64,000 nucleotides of DNA from NCBI RefSeq assembly GCF_003033885.1, contig NZ_CP024081.1, positions 5,453,178 to 5,517,177 of the forward strand. The letters are read 5' to 3'. The stretch's first letter is position 1. Each line of letters begins with the position of its first letter. The notes beneath the pieces are model-generated. The model searched no databases, was not told the DNA's origin, and saw only the letters and a program-made list of their open reading frames with translations. Source of the DNA: Pseudomonas rhizophila (lineage in GTDB: Bacteria; Pseudomonadota; Gammaproteobacteria; Pseudomonadales; Pseudomonadaceae). Positions 53,954 through 63,865 of this stretch are shown here, piece after piece. A program made the translations under genes and the position numbers.

Positions 53954-54029
<76 letters not shown>

Positions 54030-54072
54030 TACAAGGTTCCAGAGAGGGCTTTCAAAATCTCTGGAACCCCCG

Positions 54073-54201: not shown

Positions 54202-55524
54202 ATGTCGCGCACCACTGCTCCACTCTCCGATTCGGCTTGCCGTTCAGCCAAGCCCACCGACCGCGCCTACAAGCTTTTCGACGGTGACGGCCTCTACCTT
54301 TTAGTCCAACCCAATGGCCGCAAAGGCTGGCGTTTCAGGTATGTAAAACCTGATGGACGTGAAGGACTGACCTCGTTTGGCAACTACCCCGTGATCGGCC
54401 TCGCCGATGCGCGCAAGAGGCGCCTGGAGGTCAAGCGCATGCTGGCGGAAGGCATCGACCCCATCGAGTCCAAACACCAAGCCAAGACGCAAGCCACAAT
54501 CCGAGGCCGAACCTTTGAGAGCGCAGCCTTGGACTGGCACAAAGCGATGTCTGCCAAATGGGCTCCAGGCCATGCCAAGACGGTCCTGAGCCGTCTAAAA
54601 ACCCATGTTTTTCCACTGATCGGTGATCGCGCAATTGTCGACCTAGACACTCACGACTTGATGCAACCTCTGGAAGCAATCCAGAAGCGCGGCACGATTG
54701 ACGTCGCTTTAAGGGTACAAAACTACCTACAAAGCATCATGCGCGAGGCGAAACGTGCTCGACAGATCGCGGCCAACCCTGCCTCCGACCTTGAAGGTTT
54801 GATCAAAGCCCCGAGGGTGATTCACCGCCCTGCTTTACCCTTATCGCGTCTGCCTGAATTGCAGGAGCGTATCGACACCTACAAAGGCCGCGCACTTACC
54901 CGACTGACGGTCATGCTCTCGCTGCATGTGTTCGTCCGCTCCAGCGAACTGCGCTTCGCCCGCTGGAGCGAGTTCGACCTCAAGCGCGGCACCTGGGAGA
55001 TACCGGACACTCGACCCGCATTGGACGGAGTACCCTTTTCAACAAGGGGTACGAAGATGGCCGGGGACATCCACCTTGTACCCTTATCGCCGCAAGCCGT
55101 GGCCCTGCTTGAACAGATCCACGTCCTCACCGGTAAATTCGACCTGGTGTTTGCAGGCGATACCAAGCCCTGGAAACCCATGTCTGAAAACACGGTGAAC
55201 AGCGCACTCAGAAAAATGGGCTATGACACCAAAACCGAAATCTGCGGGCATGGGTTTCGGTCGATGGCCTGTAGCGCGCTGATTGAGTCAGGGCTGTGGT
55301 CCGAGACAGCCATTGAAAGGCAGATGAGCCACAAGGAGCGGAATAACGTCCGCGCCGCTTACATCCACAAGGCCGAGTTCATTGAGGAGCGCAGGCTGAT
55401 CATGAACTGGTGGAGCCGGTACCTAGAGGCCAACCGGCAGGAGCATGTCACTCCACACGAGTTCGCGAACCAGACCGGAGCGAACGTCACTCGCCTAAAA
55501 GCAAAACGTGGCGCAACCGAGTAA
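54202..55524 (+). CDS. P4-type tyrosine integrase of the island
   Basis: 440 residues. N-terminal arm-binding domain (DUF4102: ACRSAKPTDRAYKLFDGDGLYLLVQPNGRKGWRFRY), a SAM-like core-binding domain (about 105-195) and a catalytic domain with Arg in FVRSSELRFARWSEFD, the HxxR box HGFRSMACSALIESG and the Tyr in MSHKERNNVRAAYIHKAEF. All catalytic residues are present, so it should be active. It recombines attP with the tRNA-Thr attB. It lies 172 bases after the tRNA, the standard position. GGAGGAG serves as ribosome site. Confidence 0.96.
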   Translation: MSRTTAPLSDSACRSAKPTDRAYKLFDGDGLYLLVQPNGRKGWRFRYVKPDGREGLTSFGNYPVIGLADARKRRLEVKRMLAEGIDPIESKHQAKTQATIRGRTFESAALDWHKAMSAKWAPGHAKTVLSRLKTHVFPLIGDRAIVDLDTHDLMQPLEAIQKRGTIDVALRVQNYLQSIMREAKRARQIAANPASDLEGLIKAPRVIHRPALPLSRLPELQERIDTYKGRALTRLTVMLSLHVFVRSSELRFARWSEFDLKRGTWEIPDTRPALDGVPFSTRGTKMAGDIHLVPLSPQAVALLEQIHVLTGKFDLVFAGDTKPWKPMSENTVNSALRKMGYDTKTEICGHGFRSMACSALIESGLWSETAIERQMSHKERNNVRAAYIHKAEFIEERRLIMNWWSRYLEANRQEHVTPHEFANQTGANVTRLKAKRGATE

Positions 55525-56281: not shown

Positions 56282-56449
56282 ATGCCCAAGCTCCCGGTCG
56301 TAAAGAGCCGCCAGTCCCGCGTTAGTGGACAACCCTCACAGGTCGCAGGGGCCTTGATCCCTGATAACACTCAGCATTCTTGGCGGGATGACGTGGGGAA
56401 AGTTTTAAAAGTTTTGGCTTCGAGAGGAGTTTGCTCATGGCATTGGTAG
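56282..56449 (+). CDS. Possible small protein overlapping the second recombinase
   Basis: A 55-residue frame (MPKLPVVKSRQSRVSGQPSQ ... VLASRGVCSWHW) starting 13 bases after AGGAGG and running 13 bases into the recombinase gene, whose own AGGAG sits inside this frame. Such overlap would couple translation. No similarity recognised; basic N-terminus. It may instead be leader sequence. Confidence 0.35.
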   Translation: MPKLPVVKSRQSRVSGQPSQVAGALIPDNTQHSWRDDVGKVLKVLASRGVCSWHW

Positions 56450-57417
56450 GAAGGCGAGACGGGCGCAATTTTGGCTATGGTCGGCAGCTGAGCTATGCGG
56501 GGCCACAAGCATTACGTGATCTTTTTGGCGGCGGGCATTACGGCACGGTCAAAGCGCACAGTGATCGGTGGCAGGCATTTGTGCGGTGGTGTCGGTCGAA
56601 GGATGGGCCAGGGTTTAACGATGCGCGGCAGATAGATCGGCAGACCTTGCTGGACTACGCCGGACATCTGCGTCAGCAAGTTGAACAAGGCGCTATAGGC
56701 ATCGCCACCGCGCAAAACCGGTTGTCCAGCGTGAACCGGACCCTGGCTGCGCTTCGCGGTGATCAGTATATGAGAGCGCCAAGTCCAAGTAAGGCGCTGG
56801 GAATGCAGCGCTCCGGTATCCGCAGTGAAGTACCTCAAGGCCAAGACCGCGCACAAGTGAAACGGATCGTTGAAGTGCTATGTGAACATCAGCAGCCACG
56901 AGTCGCTGCCATCGTGCAGTTGGCACGCGAAACCGGGATGCGTTTACGTGAGGCCATTTTAGCAAACCTGCCCCGGCTGCAACGTGAGGCCAAACAACTC
57001 GGCAGGATCAACATCCAGGACGGCACCAAAGGCGGTCGTTCGGGCGCATCAGCCTCTCGCTGGATTACGGTAAGCAATAAGATCCGCGAGGCACTGGCAT
57101 TCGCCCATCAAGTTTCGCCAAAAGGTAGCCGCAACCTATTGGCCCCGAACGAAAGCTACCTAGACTTCCTAACGAGCACCGTCCGTCCCGCTCGAGACCT
57201 CCTCCACACGCATGAACTCAGAGGCTTTCATGAGCTGCGGGCGGCTTATGCGTGCGAACGCTACGAGGAAATCACTGATCACCTCGCGCCCATCAACGGT
57301 GGTAATTGCTACCAACTCAACCAACACCTCGATCAGTTGGCCCGAGTACAAATCAGCTACGAACTTGGTCACGGTCGTATCGACGTGGTTTCGGCTTACA
57401 TTGGTGGTCGAGCATGA
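56437..57417 (+). CDS. Second tyrosine recombinase (Integrase_1 type)
   Basis: 326 residues from ATG 56437 (MALVGRRDGRNFGYGRQLSYAGPQALRDLF). N-terminal SAM-like DNA-binding domain (about 20-105), then a catalytic domain with Arg in LARETGMRLREAIL, a Lys after a strand (GTKGGRSGASASRWITV), the box HELRGFHELRAAYA supplying His/Arg, and the closing YELGHGRIDVVSAYIGG with His and the Tyr nucleophile. It differs from the P4-type integrase and resembles the Integrase_1 families of conjugative and genomic islands. Its stop overlaps the next small gene (ATGA). It could serve a second mobile unit nested in the island. Confidence 0.85.
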   Translation: MALVGRRDGRNFGYGRQLSYAGPQALRDLFGGGHYGTVKAHSDRWQAFVRWCRSKDGPGFNDARQIDRQTLLDYAGHLRQQVEQGAIGIATAQNRLSSVNRTLAALRGDQYMRAPSPSKALGMQRSGIRSEVPQGQDRAQVKRIVEVLCEHQQPRVAAIVQLARETGMRLREAILANLPRLQREAKQLGRINIQDGTKGGRSGASASRWITVSNKIREALAFAHQVSPKGSRNLLAPNESYLDFLTSTVRPARDLLHTHELRGFHELRAAYACERYEEITDHLAPINGGNCYQLNQHLDQLARVQISYELGHGRIDVVSAYIGGRA

Positions 57418-57689
57418 GCAAAACATTTGATATGGAACTGTTCCTGGCGAGCGTACTGACTGGATCGTATACCACACGTCAACGTCACCTTCGGCAGGCA
57501 AAGATAATCCAAACGACAATTGTTAATCGCTGGAACCTGGAAAACCCGTGGATATGGCAACGAAAGCACCTTATATGGTTCCTAAACAACAGCGCGAATA
57601 ATAAGTCAACCTCCACCCATTATTATTACGTACTGACCGCTCGTTTGATCGTATCTCGGTTAAAAAAAGGGTGGCGGTTACCGAAATAA
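57414..57689 (+). CDS. Small protein coupled to the second recombinase
   Basis: 91 residues (MSKTFDMELFLASVLTGSYT ...). The ATG overlaps the recombinase stop, so it is translated with it. The sequence TRQRHLRQAKIIQTTIVNRW, then WIWQRKHLIWFLNNSANNKS and YYYVLTARLIVSRLKKGW, reads like a free-standing integrase core-binding (SAM-like) helical domain, which would suit an accessory DNA-binding or directionality role. That is inference; no family can be named. AT content rises from here on. Confidence 0.65.
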   Translation: MSKTFDMELFLASVLTGSYTTRQRHLRQAKIIQTTIVNRWNLENPWIWQRKHLIWFLNNSANNKSTSTHYYYVLTARLIVSRLKKGWRLPK

Positions 57690-57822
57690 CCATACGAAAT
57701 TTTTTGGGACGATGCTTACTCTGGAGAAGTCATGCTAAGCTCTGATGCACCAATTAAAAGCGAAAAACTCAACAACAAATTACAACCGGCCAGCAATCAA
57801 CATTACTCCTTTAAAAGTCACC

Positions 57823-58611
57823 ATGAACAAAAAAGTTATTTTATGTGCCTGGATCTGCGCAACATCTATAATTCAGATTTTTTTGGATAAAGTTATTTTC
57901 CCAGAAAATGACAAAATACAATATAGAGAGATGGAACTCTACAGACCACGAGCGGACTTCGAATACAAATTAACTGAACTGTTAAAAAGTATACGCACCA
58001 ACCAGTATTATGAGAAGTTAAACATTGAAAATACAAAACGAACAATTGACACAGCCTATATACATACACTTCTTGAGTATCATCGAGAGATCGTTCAGCT
58101 CTACGACGTAGCGGGATCAAAAGAAATTCTATTAGCGCTTCAAGAAATGGGTACCGATATTGTACGAATGTCTAAGAGCATTGGATATAATACTTGCGTT
58201 CCCAGCGATCAGTTTTCCAACTTCAATACTTCTGCAAAAGAGATAGCTCCGCTAATAGATAAATTAAGTTCCATCAAAGAAAACATATTAAACTTTGACG
58301 AAAAAATTCGTAAAGCTAAACCTGATCATCTCGAAAACGGAAAGTTTGATACTGAAGCAGCGGCAGAAAAGGTCAGGCTATTGATCGAGCTTATGAAAGA
58401 TCCATATCTATATGTTAGATTCAACAACAAAGACCCAATTTCTGATTTCCAAAAATACATAAATGACTTCGACACCATACATGAGACATATAGAACCTGC
58501 GCTGCCAACTATGCAGAGAGAAACGAACACAACAACCACATTAAATTGTTTTATCAAATTATGACCTTCTTAATTCTCACCATACTTATGTATAGAAAAG
58601 ACTTGTTATAA
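57823..58611 (+). CDS. Two-helix membrane protein of unknown function
   Basis: 262 residues from ATG 57823 (MNKKVILCAWICATSIIQIF); the same frame is open to ATG 57745. Transmembrane helices at both ends (VILCAWICATSIIQIFLDKVIF and IKLFYQIMTFLILTILMY) bracket a ~210-residue helical soluble domain with many charged residues (KLTELLKSIRTNQYYEKLN, TAYIHTLLEYHREIVQLYD). Two cysteines (NTCVPS, RTCAAN) could bond if the domain is periplasmic. AT-rich codon use marks it as foreign. The strongest ribosome site nearby (GGAG at 57723) serves ATG 57732 of a 52-residue frame (to 57890) offset from this one, so the true start is unclear. Convergent with the nuclease gene. Confidence 0.65.
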   Translation: MNKKVILCAWICATSIIQIFLDKVIFPENDKIQYREMELYRPRADFEYKLTELLKSIRTNQYYEKLNIENTKRTIDTAYIHTLLEYHREIVQLYDVAGSKEILLALQEMGTDIVRMSKSIGYNTCVPSDQFSNFNTSAKEIAPLIDKLSSIKENILNFDEKIRKAKPDHLENGKFDTEAAAEKVRLLIELMKDPYLYVRFNNKDPISDFQKYINDFDTIHETYRTCAANYAERNEHNNHIKLFYQIMTFLILTILMYRKDLL

Positions 58612-58642
58612 ATATTCAAATATTCAAATATTCAAATATTCA
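58611..58642. repeat. Tandem 8-base repeat (AATATTCA x4)
   Basis: Four perfect copies of AATATTCA begin at the last base of the membrane-protein stop codon. A short repeat of this type can slip during replication. The remaining sequence to 58893 is AT-rich and non-coding. Confidence 0.9.
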
Positions 58643-58893
58643 AGAAATATCATCCACGTTGATTAGTAATGCTTTACATAGCCATGACTGATCAACACAC
58701 CGTTCGCCTTTGGTCGAGTAGAGAGAGAGAGCGCTTACAACCCATGCAAACTTAAACCCATTGAACTGCCTAAAACATACCAAATATCTTGTCACTTTAC
58801 TTTTACCAAGTCGGTACAGTTCGGGGGAGATTATTGGCCACCCTGGATACTTAAATTGATTTCTCCATTGCTAAAGTAAAATTAATAGCGAGA

Positions 58894-59307
58894 TTAAGGC
58901 ATATCGCTTTTTGGCATAGCATTGAGCGAACTGTCACTTGTAGCCCATGGTTTTACAGTAGTCACAGATTTACGATTCGGCTTAATTTTTTGTTTCCGCA
59001 CCGACCCCCATTGATAAATAAGTTCTTGTTCGTATGCCTCTACATCCTTGAATGCAGCTTCTCCAATATGTGCAATGTAGAGTGAAAAATCAGATCGTAA
59101 CATTCCAGCAATCAAGTGCATATATCCACTGTTATACCTAGCAGAAGCTGTATAACCAGAACTTTGACTTGTACCGAAACTCTTAGCTTTACCTATATAA
59201 AAAGGCCTATCTCCATCTTGAGGATGGTGGAATACGTACAAACAGAAGCACTGACGCTTAGCATCTTCGAGTGTATCGTATGTAAACTTTTCCCAAACCA
59301 GTTGCAT
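58894..59307 (-). CDS. GIY-YIG nuclease-like protein
   Basis: 137 residues. The fold signature is degenerate but recognisable: CLYVFHH (residues 22-28) for the GIY strand, PFYIGKAKSFG (35-45) for YIG, an arginine in TASARYNSGYMHLI (Arg57), LYIAHIGEAAFKDVEAYEQELIYQWG with the metal-binding Glu near 93-95. A basic tail (VRKQKIKPNRKSVTTVKP) may touch DNA. It is a stand-alone nuclease domain of minimal size. It lies 184 bases after the helicase stop on the same strand, with GGGGT as ribosome site. Probably partners the helicase. Confidence 0.78.
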   Translation of the reverse strand: MQLVWEKFTYDTLEDAKRQCFCLYVFHHPQDGDRPFYIGKAKSFGTSQSSGYTASARYNSGYMHLIAGMLRSDFSLYIAHIGEAAFKDVEAYEQELIYQWGSVRKQKIKPNRKSVTTVKPWATSDSSLNAMPKSDMP

Positions 59308-59491
59308 TGGTTTACCCCGACATCAAACTACAATCATTATAAAAACAGTGCGGCAAAACTTCAGATTTGTTTTCGAGTAAATCTTACCATGCTATAAATA
59401 ACTAACTCCCCTTAGGTACTACAAGAGTCACAAAACCAAACTTGCCCTCACTGAACCTCTCAATCAATGAGTACCACTCACAAAAAAGCCC

Positions 59492-62400
59492 CTAGGAAAC
59501 GAACACCTTGAATGCCACATCATTATTTGCCGAAGTTGCTGTCCATGAGTCTAGCAACTGGAATGCCTGAAGACTTTCATGTATGCATTCATTACCGCGA
59601 CTCACTTGATTAGAAAAATGAGTCCGAGAAAAAGCGTTTCCGATCACAATCCAAATTTCTTTTTCCACCCGTAAAGAATTTCTTCGTTCAGTAAACACGC
59701 GCCACGCTTCATCAACCACAGTCTCATAACCCACCCCTAATCTCGCCATATAAGCGTCGGGGGCTTCCTTATGAATCAGCCGCACTCGCTTTAGGAGGTC
59801 TGGGTGAGTTAGATCTAATCGCCACGGAGCGCCTAGCAATCGATGATTCCCAAACTTAAGATCCTTATTAGGACTTATCAAAACCTCCATATTTTTTATT
59901 GCTTGCCCACCTACTTCTGCAATTGCACCCGCTGAGGATCGCGGCTGCAAAGTATCTCCACACTTAACATGTATAAATACCAACTTTGTTTCAGAACTGG
60001 CAATAAAATCTGCAGGCTCTGTATTTAAATCAGTGCAGAGCAAATAATCAATATCAGGTATATGCGAGAAAAATGGACCATATTCAGCCACACGCATATT
60101 AGAGTCATTTACATTTCGAATTTTGTCTATTAAAAAAAACACGGAATTAGGTAGAAAAGCGTTTTGTACCAACCCAGCGGAACCTCCTTTTTCATCCATT
60201 CCGGGCGAAAGCAACTCGTTTACCTTTATAATTGAGCGACCTATGGCGGATTTATCTAAGTCAAATCCTGCCTCAAGTGGTAGTCTAAATTTATAATATC
60301 GTCCTTGGTAGAACGCTGATGAATTTATATACAGAATCCTCTGCAATCCAGCAGTAAACACTTCCGTCATCGACTGTCCAGAGAAAAACTCCTGCCCGGA
60401 ATCAGATATCTGTTGATTAAGAAGCCTGTAGTTACTATCTAAAACAAGTCTAGGTGCGTGTGTATTTATGTCATATGACAAATAGATATGCACATCTCCT
60501 AGTTCCGCCCGATAAACAAAACTATTAGAGCCAGACACATACTCTAGATAAATAATATCATTAATTAAATTAAACTCCTGCCCATTTAACGCAAACATCA
60601 GAGGATCGGAAAAATCACAAAAATCAAGAATGATGCTTGCAGGCTCACACTCCGGAGGGTTAGCAACGGGCTTCGCGAAAGAATTTATTAAATTACTTTC
60701 GACGACCCTTCCGCTATTTATCACATCTACAACATCATCTATCCACGCAGCTAATCCGCGCAGACTTAGGTTCCTATTCTTCTGATCAGAAATTCGTCCA
60801 GATCCTACACCGAGGTAATAGCTACTTTGTGCAACACCATTCTGCGATAGATTATCAACCATAAGTGTTGACAGTGCATAGGAGGCGTTGGACTGCGCCG
60901 AGTGAATATCTTCGAGATTACGTCCTCGCCATGAGACTCCTTCTGGACGCCGCCTAGCTTCGCCTATGGCCATACTTGTGGCCGACTTGGTTCTAATGCG
61001 GTCAGTTCTTGCTCCGAGGGATAGAATTTCCTCCAGTGAAATTACACCGCCAAGACCAATTTCAGCTTCACTCGAATAGTTAACGCCTCTACTATCATAA
61101 ACAACGAATAGGTCACCAAGCTCTCTACAAATTACAACTTGAAGCGCCGGCTCAAAAAATAAAGAATCCTTTAAAAACCTTGAATTACTAAAACTTATGC
61201 TTAGAGCAATTGAAAAACCTAGAGACTCTCGAATTACGACAAGCTCACCAGCCATAGTGAGCTTCCAATATAAGGCATCTATAAATTTAGCCATCGTAAA
61301 AGCAGGCGTCTTCTTTATAAAACAGAGAGATGCCAGAGGAATAGTTAAGCTTTGTTCCACATCGAAATTATCAATATCAAATTTCTTCCTAAAGCCTGAG
61401 TCAAAATAACTTACATCAGGGAAGGCATCAAGATACCTCTTTAGGAGCATTGATGTATCAAGTGACTTTAAGAACGAAACACAATTATCGCGAACACTAA
61501 TATACTCATCAAAATCTAGGAAATTTCTCCACAAGCTCGAGTTGGAGTTCGAGTTTATTTCCAACGTAAACGCATCATAATTCCGATGTGCCCGAACAAC
61601 CCGCCCGACTGTTTGCACAAGCTCTCGACCACTACGGACGGCATATGTCAGAACCAGAATTTTTGCTTGTGGAATATCTATACCTTCATCAAGTTTTCTC
61701 TGATGAATAATCACATCATAACTGGAGTTTTTAAGTGACCTAGGAACTGTAGATTTAAAGTTCTCTCTTGCATCGCCTGAAAACTGTTGGTGGACAGCCA
61801 ATACAGAAAACTCCGGAGAAAATAATTCGGCGTATAACTCTATAGCTTCAACATTTTCGCATTTTACAATACACTTGGTATTAGGCTGTTGCTCTAAAAG
61901 TTCTTTTACACGCGGAAGCAGTCTTTCATAAGCCATAGACTCCCAAACCGGCTCACAGAGAACATTGTCTTCAAGCGCATGTTTGTATGTATAAACATAG
62001 CTCCATTCGGGAGCAACATCAAATTTAAATAAATCGTTTCTATATGGCGTAGCAGTTATTATGACTTTATGGGCTCTAAATGACCGTGATATTTCACTCC
62101 AGATTGGGGACGGCTCGGAATGTCCCTCATCCACAATTACCAGATCCACAGCCTCAACTAACGCACTTAAAGCCACCTCAGATAGCGACGACAACATCTG
62201 AAAAGTAGTAACATTTATACTTTTATCTTCAGTAAGTGCCACACCATCAATTACTGTTTTCAATTCAATATCATATTCAGGCAGTCTATCAGTGAAAAAC
62301 TCCCCTGAAAGCTGCTTAACCAGTTGCTCCCGTACCGCCGAACGATGGCAAATAACTAATATTTTCTGCTGTTGCCCAAAGTGGGCTAGAACAGAAATCA

Positions 62401-62557
62401 CTCCTGTTTTACCACCCCCGGTGGGCATGCTTACCAAGCATGAATGGCGAATTTCTGGTTGGTTAAGGTAATCGAATGCCAGCTCAAGCGCATTTTTCTG
62501 GCCTTTACGAAGGACATTCCAAAGGTCGTCGTTAACTTCTACAGCCCCGAACTCCAT
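59492..62557 (-). CDS. Large SF2 (DEAD/DEAH-type) helicase with long C-terminal extension, candidate defence protein
   Basis: 1,021 residues from ATG 62557, which has GGAG seven bases upstream; the frame extends 57 bases further to ATG 62614 without a ribosome site. Helicase motifs (numbers for the shorter form): Q-like LRKGQKNAL (17-25), Walker A MPTGGGKT (44-51), DEGH box (143-146), TATP (168-171), LDEGIDIP (289-296) and VGRVVRAHR (317-325). All are intact, so an active ATPase is expected. About 690 residues follow. Most match nothing I know, but near residue 845-890 ADFIASSETKLVFIHVKCGD followed by EVGGQAIKNM resembles a PD-(D/E)xK-type nuclease core with His in place of the Glu. AT-rich codon use. 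First gene of a two-gene unit with the GIY-YIG protein. Confidence 0.85.
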   Translation of the reverse strand: MEFGAVEVNDDLWNVLRKGQKNALELAFDYLNQPEIRHSCLVSMPTGGGKTGVISVLAHFGQQQKILVICHRSAVREQLVKQLSGEFFTDRLPEYDIELKTVIDGVALTEDKSINVTTFQMLSSLSEVALSALVEAVDLVIVDEGHSEPSPIWSEISRSFRAHKVIITATPYRNDLFKFDVAPEWSYVYTYKHALEDNVLCEPVWESMAYERLLPRVKELLEQQPNTKCIVKCENVEAIELYAELFSPEFSVLAVHQQFSGDARENFKSTVPRSLKNSSYDVIIHQRKLDEGIDIPQAKILVLTYAVRSGRELVQTVGRVVRAHRNYDAFTLEINSNSNSSLWRNFLDFDEYISVRDNCVSFLKSLDTSMLLKRYLDAFPDVSYFDSGFRKKFDIDNFDVEQSLTIPLASLCFIKKTPAFTMAKFIDALYWKLTMAGELVVIRESLGFSIALSISFSNSRFLKDSLFFEPALQVVICRELGDLFVVYDSRGVNYSSEAEIGLGGVISLEEILSLGARTDRIRTKSATSMAIGEARRRPEGVSWRGRNLEDIHSAQSNASYALSTLMVDNLSQNGVAQSSYYLGVGSGRISDQKNRNLSLRGLAAWIDDVVDVINSGRVVESNLINSFAKPVANPPECEPASIILDFCDFSDPLMFALNGQEFNLINDIIYLEYVSGSNSFVYRAELGDVHIYLSYDINTHAPRLVLDSNYRLLNQQISDSGQEFFSGQSMTEVFTAGLQRILYINSSAFYQGRYYKFRLPLEAGFDLDKSAIGRSIIKVNELLSPGMDEKGGSAGLVQNAFLPNSVFFLIDKIRNVNDSNMRVAEYGPFFSHIPDIDYLLCTDLNTEPADFIASSETKLVFIHVKCGDTLQPRSSAGAIAEVGGQAIKNMEVLISPNKDLKFGNHRLLGAPWRLDLTHPDLLKRVRLIHKEAPDAYMARLGVGYETVVDEAWRVFTERRNSLRVEKEIWIVIGNAFSRTHFSNQVSRGNECIHESLQAFQLLDSWTATSANNDVAFKVFVS

Positions 62558-62833
62558 TTCTGATCTCCATACCCTACGCTCAGCACCGGGATAGTTAGCT
62601 GAGTCGGAAAGCATACCGGCACAAAGCTACTACACCCACATATTTTTGACTATTCACTACCAGCCCTCCCTTCAATGCAATTCGCTTCTGCAAATTAAAC
62701 GAATATCGCTAATTTTCATCAGGAGGGCTCAAAAAGTCAGATGCGTGCGTCTTCACCTAGCTAGAGGTAGATTTAGGGGTATATCCAAGACTAGCCGCCT
62801 ATAAAAAACTTTATTTACAGATAGTTAGGTATA

Positions 62834-62862
62834 GGTTCGACTCCTGGTGCCGCACCATACAA
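62834..62862 (+). repeat. attR: right-end attachment repeat
   Basis: GGTTCGACTCCTGGTGCCG followed by CACCATACAA, the copy of the tRNA-Thr 3' end with one G missing in the acceptor stem. It is followed at once by a terminator that would originally have served the tRNA. Confidence 0.92.
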
Positions 62863-62863
62863 A

Positions 62864-62897
62864 ACAAAGCCCTCGCAGAAATGCGAGGGCTTTGTTG
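62864..62897 (+). terminator. Displaced terminator of tRNA-Thr
   Basis: ACAAAGCCCTCGCA / TGCGAGGGCTTTGT with a short loop and TTGTTT tail, two bases after attR. Confidence 0.9.
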
Positions 62898-62918
62898 TTT
62901 CTGCACGCCCACTTTTCT

Positions 62919-62992
62919 GTGGGAGCGAGCCTGCTCGCGATGAGGCCATCACCGCCACCGACACTCTGCCATACAGACGCAAGCTCGCTCCG
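62919..62992. repeat. Decayed REPIN
   Basis: One intact REP half at 62919-62941; the partner near 62978-62992 retains only GCAAGCTCGCTCC before diverging. First REP sequence after the island. Confidence 0.85.
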
Positions 62993-63084
62993 TCCGCCCC
63001 AGATGCGTTAATCCCGGACACACAATTTCTAACCCCGCCAGCATGGCGCCACGATTGTCCCCTATCCAATCGACCGCTACCTTC

Positions 63085-63361
63085 CAACTGTCGCTGCCAA
63101 TTCAGCGACCGGGCGTAAGAAACCCGAAGTACATCAAGGCGTATCAGCTGCGCCTCGCTTACTAATGCTGGCGTTTTTTGTGTCTGCGATATGCGTTATG
63201 GCGGCTTTGCGCGGGACGCCTTCGAGTGTGCGGGAGCCTTGATTCCCGGTTTTCCTACCCGTGCATGGCCGCCACCCAATCCCGGACAAGTACGGGGACA
63301 GGCCACGATTCCTAGCTGAAATGAATATGCAGACGCCAAATTAAGCGTGATCTGTCCCCGT
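63085..63361. other. Repeat-derived non-coding sequence with inverted repeat
   Basis: No gene in 62993-63505. Contains a terminator-like CGCC...GGCG-TTTTTT (about 63148-63180), a hairpin GGGAGCCTTGATTCCC (about 63230-63246), and at 63292-63307 / 63346-63361 an inverted repeat (ACGGGGACAGGCCACG / CGTGATCTGTCCCCGT, 14 of 16 pairs). The last resembles ends I associate with REP-associated transposase relics in Pseudomonas. The first part resembles leader sequences seen before small DUF6124/DUF3077 genes, but no such gene follows. Confidence 0.5.
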
Positions 63362-63505: not shown

Positions 63506-63865
63506 ATGCAAAGGGACTATGGGCTCGACACATTACTGAGCCTGCACCAAGAAATTTTGGCTCAGGAGGGTGGCTACTGGGCCAAGATCGAGGCCTACCA
63601 GGTTGAGCCTTCTGAGCATATCCCGCATGGGATTAAATACTCGCTCACCCTGCATGATCGAGGTGGAACCAGGGTGCTTGGTTATGACAATGCCCACTTG
63701 GTGAAGCCCGCCAAGTTCAAATATGCGGGCCAGGTCCTACCCTACGACCATAAGCATCGGTCGAGCACGGATAAGGGCGTGCCCTATGAATTCAAAGACG
63801 CTCAGCAGTTGCTACGGGATTTTTTCGCAGACGTTGACCGTGTGTTGGAGCAGGTGAAGAAATGA
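63506..63865 (+). CDS. Toxin of TumE type (DUF6516 family)
   Basis: 119 residues. The family pattern is visible: GGYWAKIEAYQVEPSEHIPHGIKYSLTLHDRGGTRVLGYDNAH, then YDHKHRSSTDKGVPYEFKDAQQLLRDFFADVDRVLEQ. The DNAH and YDHKHR motifs are typical of this toxin group, whose molecular target is not settled. Small, soluble, cytosolic. The toxin gene comes first and overlaps the antitoxin gene by four bases. AAGG precedes ATG 63506. Confidence 0.85.
   Translation: MQRDYGLDTLLSLHQEILAQEGGYWAKIEAYQVEPSEHIPHGIKYSLTLHDRGGTRVLGYDNAHLVKPAKFKYAGQVLPYDHKHRSSTDKGVPYEFKDAQQLLRDFFADVDRVLEQVKK

Follow-up and report, generated by a model that had tools for sequence, protein, structure and literature searches.

We examined two adjacent genes carried by a mobile island in the genome of Pseudomonas rhizophila, within a 64,000-nucleotide stretch of contig NZ_CP024081.1 (positions 5,453,178 to 5,517,177 of the forward strand) that we refer to as the window. 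One gene encodes a large helicase of superfamily 2 (SF2) and the other, 184 bp downstream on the same (minus) strand, a small protein with a GIY-YIG fold:

59492 to 62557, minus strand: SF2 helicase with a C-terminal nuclease-like domain, 1,021 amino acids (aa) from the likely start; the open reading frame (ORF) opens at 62614
59495 to 60274, minus strand: C-terminal region of the helicase, similar to the PADLOC family PDC-S71, with D862, E866, D869, H882, K884 and Q904 invariant
58894 to 59307, minus strand: GIY-YIG-fold protein of 137 aa, assigned from the predicted structure and a profile; its family is unnamed and has no Pfam model

The original prediction for this locus described a helicase, some 1,020 residues long and complete in its motifs, followed 184 bases on by a GIY-YIG-like protein, and proposed that the two act together. 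Pfam matches, residue conservation and the predicted fold bear out the description of the genes. The proposed partnership fared differently: the two genes travel separately and are probably two independent candidate defence genes, not one two-part system.

That two genes adjoin in a single island says little about whether they form a system; the neighbours found in other genomes decide. Helicase loci were drawn from contigs representing one genome per species, giving 80 loci, 41 with at least 37% identity over the best segment and 39 with at most 32% (L066-L081 match solely in or around the motor, and in L014 and L040 less than 100 bp is available downstream of the helicase). Searched with a profile of the small protein, only one of the 41 close loci from other genomes, and one of the 80 when the distant loci are included, has a GIY-YIG gene near the helicase; this is L002, from Pseudomonas sp. 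TNT3. A wider profile of 121 GIY-YIG sequences added no further helicase locus with such a gene, and when 40 helicase-bearing genomes were searched whole, the GIY-YIG gene was found in one of them, again TNT3. Gene neighbourhoods elsewhere had been put forward with the original prediction as its check, and their outcome goes against a pair. Compared in 500-bp blocks, the window and TNT3 are 98.8-99.8% identical from 56501 to 62500, dropping to 97% in the final block; identity is 90-98% between 54001 and 56500 and 63-84% to the left of 54001 (63-71% to the left of 53501). The high identity of the island against a diverged flank shows that the island was transferred recently, and TNT3 is therefore no independent case of linkage. 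The two island copies differ at 3 positions in the GIY-YIG gene and 12 in the helicase, too few to test selection. In the helicase tree, for which 40 of 45 loci passed the length filter, the sister of the window helicase (L003, 55% identity) is without a GIY-YIG gene. Because linkage is absent in independent genomes, a two-gene system is not supported.

Examined from the other side, three GIY-YIG loci contain no match to the helicase family in the DNA examined, namely L099 (18 kb) and the Bacteroidota plasmid loci L095 and L101, whose GIY-YIG relatives are 34% and 28% identical. The small protein belongs to a family of ~125 residues that is unnamed in the libraries searched; it matches neither Pfam PF01541 nor any other model in PADLOC, Pfam or NCBIfam. 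Its assignment to the GIY-YIG fold follows from the predicted structure and from Y37, G39, R57 and E93, which are present in 98-100% of the 121 sequences, with CLY in place of GIY as the first motif. The gene was detected in one of 369 genomes of a class sample and one of 398 of a phylum sample (the latter searched with the single relative P0149 as query), its own genome both times, and in one of 299 genomes in the family of a Paraburkholderia genome; these samples overlap and are not independent. Phage records gave no match, none was confirmed in viral contigs, and the plasmid collection contains the gene in two records. On the Runella plasmid (L095:5234-6402) a 256-aa ORF without a Pfam match, with a motif reminiscent of uracil-DNA glycosylases, shares a 4-base overlap with the GIY-YIG relative, and an MvaI/BcnI restriction system is nearby. 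On the Adhaeribacter plasmid (L101:3408-5393) the relative follows a gene for a Fic family protein. Among known proteins, the closest parallel may be CMoRE (PD-T4-3), a single-component GIY-YIG defence protein described as having a second, modification-sensing domain (PMC12923530), whereas the window protein has one domain and the CLY variant. Like CMoRE, it would act, if at all, alone.

The motor of the helicase occupies residues ~28-390, where Pfam ResIII (E 5e-17), Helicase_C and DEAD score above cut-off, motifs I, II, III and VI are intact, with K69 as the Walker lysine, and their key residues are invariant in 25 of 25 sequences. All 50 of the matches listed among solved structures align to this region; the C-terminal part was barely probed by that comparison, and a missing match there is uninformative on its fold. 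The six residues given above for the C-terminal region are likewise invariant in 25 of 25 sequences, as are the equivalent columns in all 27 sequences of a set with identities down to 24%. Their order (E866, D869, then H882-x-K884) forms an E-x2-D ... HxK pattern resembling the site of restriction-endonuclease-like proteins, except that histidine replaces the usual acidic residue; PD-(D/E)xK-type sites usually have glutamate at this position. The helicase would need no outside nuclease, because it has this conserved domain of its own, if that domain cuts. PADLOC PDC-S71 (PDLC05077) is matched by all 27 C-terminal regions examined (E <= 0.001) and by 8 of the 8 full-length helicase relatives scanned, six over 67-91% of the profile (L045 52-589, E 2e-43; L044 61-589; L050 66-589; L047 131-589; L064 136-587; L063 192-587) and two over 26-28% (L003 422-575; L030 420-586). 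Judged by its sequence, the helicase is a diverged relative of a candidate family that PADLOC already lists, 'PDC' in PADLOC standing for phage defence candidate (PMC11514479). The original prediction had found no named system to match this locus; that stands insofar as the helicase has no full-length match to a named defence family in PADLOC, Pfam or NCBIfam, and fails insofar as its C-terminal domain probably falls in the candidate family PDC-S71. The term PDC-S71 was not found in the open literature searched, whose scope left subscription papers and preprints outside, and within the same scope none of the titles and abstract openings listed describes a helicase and GIY-YIG pair.

Several characterised systems share parts of the helicase. 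HKD nucleases have the motif HxKx4D. PbeA, an HKD nuclease fused to an SF2 helicase in the PbeABCD system, resembles the window protein in its SF2 motor (E 4e-14), but nothing outside the motor is matched, and PADLOC recognises none of the four other ORFs of the island that were scanned. PbeA is described as carrying the HKD domain (PMC10853773), whereas the C-terminal HxK of the window helicase lacks the D expected in HxKx4D, and no PADLOC-recognised PbeBCD neighbours are present, so it was not assigned to this system. HsdR proteins of the EcoAI/FtnUII family and other ResIII helicases share the ResIII motor and the architecture of a motor joined to a nuclease-like domain; the window helicase differs from a type I R subunit in having no HSDR_N match, an EcoAI-type NCBIfam score of 38.8 against a cut-off of 550, and no M or S gene in its island. 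The motor also matches HamB of Hachiman weakly (E 0.001); the score is far below that of a family match, and none of the four other ORFs scanned in the island resembles HamA.

The neighbourhoods of the helicase relatives provide a further line of evidence. A scan of 40 loci covered 78 immediate neighbours (L002 was left out, and L014 and L040 have one neighbour each), including five type I specificity subunits and five proteins with a phage-integrase domain. An hsdS-like gene lies 14-36 bp before the helicase in five of the 40 loci (L005, L009, L010, L013 and L036), all gammaproteobacterial and most with marine-sounding names, in which the helicase stands behind a type I restriction cluster. 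Domain checks of the L005 cluster identified hsdR- and hsdM-like proteins, and their gene families recur in the other four loci. In the tree, the five hsdS-linked helicases fall inside one group of ten, the remaining five being without such a neighbour. This arrangement would be expected if the helicase served type I restriction as an accessory subunit, cooperating in trans with a type I enzyme of the host; we regard this as very improbable, given that 35 of the 40 loci lack a specificity-subunit gene directly beside the helicase and that the window island contains no type I genes.

Helicase relatives are also found on plasmids, in 53 records, of which 17 align to 80% or more of the query at a single place and 22 are typed as conjugative. 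On an E. coli IncHI2 plasmid (L096:7965-17410), a 37% identical relative is followed by a gene for a 2,021-aa Avs1b-like ATPase. Phage records gave no match to the helicase, and viral contigs gave three, two of them weak. Among 398 Pseudomonas genomes, which partly overlap those behind the 80 helicase loci, 12 carry the helicase (E up to 1e-60) and a single one, the genome of the window, carries the GIY-YIG gene. A defence role, as originally proposed, fits the helicase because of its mobile location, this patchy presence and the type I restriction genes beside five relatives, and is plausible. Motor folds of this kind are common to restriction and repair enzymes, and the motor resembles those of RadD, FANCM and XPB, as would be expected of a DNA-repair or replication helicase that moves horizontally. 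We consider such a role unlikely: patchy presence, residence in a mobile island and on plasmids, type I genes beside five relatives and a C-terminus that matches a PADLOC candidate family all argue against it.

Taken together, it is likely that the helicase is a stand-alone defence gene in a small tRNA-Thr island and that the GIY-YIG gene is separate cargo. The helicase would work like an ATP-dependent restriction enzyme, in which the SF2 motor would travel on duplex DNA, the middle region would detect something foreign and the C-terminal D-E-D-HxK domain would cut. The GIY-YIG protein would be a rare passenger, probably a small DNA endonuclease working alone, that shares the island by chance. 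If this is right, two candidate families could be taken to the bench separately, a helicase of ~1,000 residues with a nuclease-like domain of its own, known from many Pseudomonadota, and a GIY-YIG family of ~125 residues that has no Pfam model.

Several observations weigh against this reading. The defence role of the helicase is a plausible prediction from genes and their context. The nuclease assignment of its C-terminal domain is putative, read from a motif, and this region has no credible Pfam or PDB match (none in Pfam at E < 0.01, and none by sequence in the PDB at E < 1.5). PDC-S71 is itself a single-gene phage defence candidate only, of putative function. Distant relatives match most of its 589-position profile, but the match of the window helicase (E 5e-18) is good only at positions 423-551. 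The GIY-YIG side comprises three contexts outside the window island, a small sample. The linkage counts are for the genome and plasmid loci given above; the helicase (78% identical) and the GIY-YIG protein (76%) also have metagenomic relatives, and two further GIY-YIG relatives bear Pseudomonas names (P0208 and P0227). Finally, the sole GIY-YIG carrier among the 398 Pseudomonas genomes is also one of the 12 helicase carriers, with the genes arranged like a pair on one strand; if the genes were independent, the chance of this would be 3% (12/398). This coincidence would be explained by a lineage-specific two-component system in which the helicase would unwind or move DNA for cleavage by the GIY-YIG protein. 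Such a system would also account for the common strand, the 184-bp gap in which no minus-strand ORF of at least 50 aa intervenes, and the retention of both genes in the TNT3 copy. We nevertheless judge it unlikely: the single linked locus among the 41 close ones is not independent, three GIY-YIG loci have no nearby helicase of this family, 184 bp is large for a gap within a single operon, and the small protein matches no PADLOC model. A promoter and terminator scan of the gap found no site.

The island that carries both genes is ~8.8 kb long, as delimited by the repeat of the tRNA-Thr 3' end and by empty sites in two relatives (G017 and G019). Its remaining features, and the tRNA gene, are:

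53954 to 54029, plus strand: tRNA-Thr (anticodon tgt), the attachment gene of the island, identified with ARAGORN
54005 to 54034, no strand: left attachment repeat, the tRNA-Thr 3' end (direct repeat D3, 19/19 bases; empty sites in two relatives)
54202 to 55524, plus strand: tyrosine integrase adjoining the tRNA, with Pfam Arm-DNA-bind_3, Phage_int_M and Phage_integrase
56431 to 57417, plus strand: second tyrosine-recombinase-like protein (PF12835, Integrase_1)
57745 to 58611, plus strand: 288-aa ORF of no family, convergent with the GIY-YIG gene; by eye, it has hydrophobic stretches close to each end
62834 to 62862, no strand: right attachment repeat, a 19/19-base direct repeat of the tRNA-Thr 3' end, also placed by comparison with TNT3

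The order is integrase, second recombinase-like gene, 288-aa ORF, GIY-YIG gene and helicase. Over 30 bases the left repeat is also 96.7% identical to the sequence in TNT3 that corresponds to the right repeat. Among 38 relatives searched, G017 and G019 have the empty site, where the left flank (to 54034) abuts the right flank (from 62863); the joined flanks align over 175/175 and 173/175 bases at 93-94% identity. A third relative, G005, has different DNA between the two flanks, these three being the relatives inspected for this. An integrase beside a tRNA, a flanking direct repeat and two empty sites confirm the tRNA-borne island of the original prediction, and the GC content of its cargo is 0.40, compared with 0.61 to the left of the island. 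The second recombinase-like gene has relatives in four helicase-bearing Pseudomonas loci besides TNT3 (L024, L028, L030 and L033), whose helicases belong to the same family, yet to a different branch of the tree from the window helicase. A tandem repeat, AAATATTC, is present in 4.2 copies at 58610-58643, where the 288-aa ORF ends. Immediately to the right of the island, a TumE-type toxin ORF (PF20126, E 9e-10) occupies 63506-63865 on the plus strand, and an overlapping ATG at ~63862 starts a frame that leaves the window and encodes a possible partner of the toxin. The right flank (62863-63284) has a 91% identical copy at G000:C1:5517530-5517969, shortly past the window end.

A bolder reading, which we hold tentatively and think somewhat doubtful, is that the helicase family represents a single-protein ATP-dependent restriction enzyme with an undescribed site, recruited as a fourth type I gene in some gammaproteobacteria, and that the GIY-YIG protein founds an unrelated new defence family. 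The helicase would then be self-sufficient in most bacteria, and its site would read E/D ... HxK, a histidine taking the place of the usual acidic residue.
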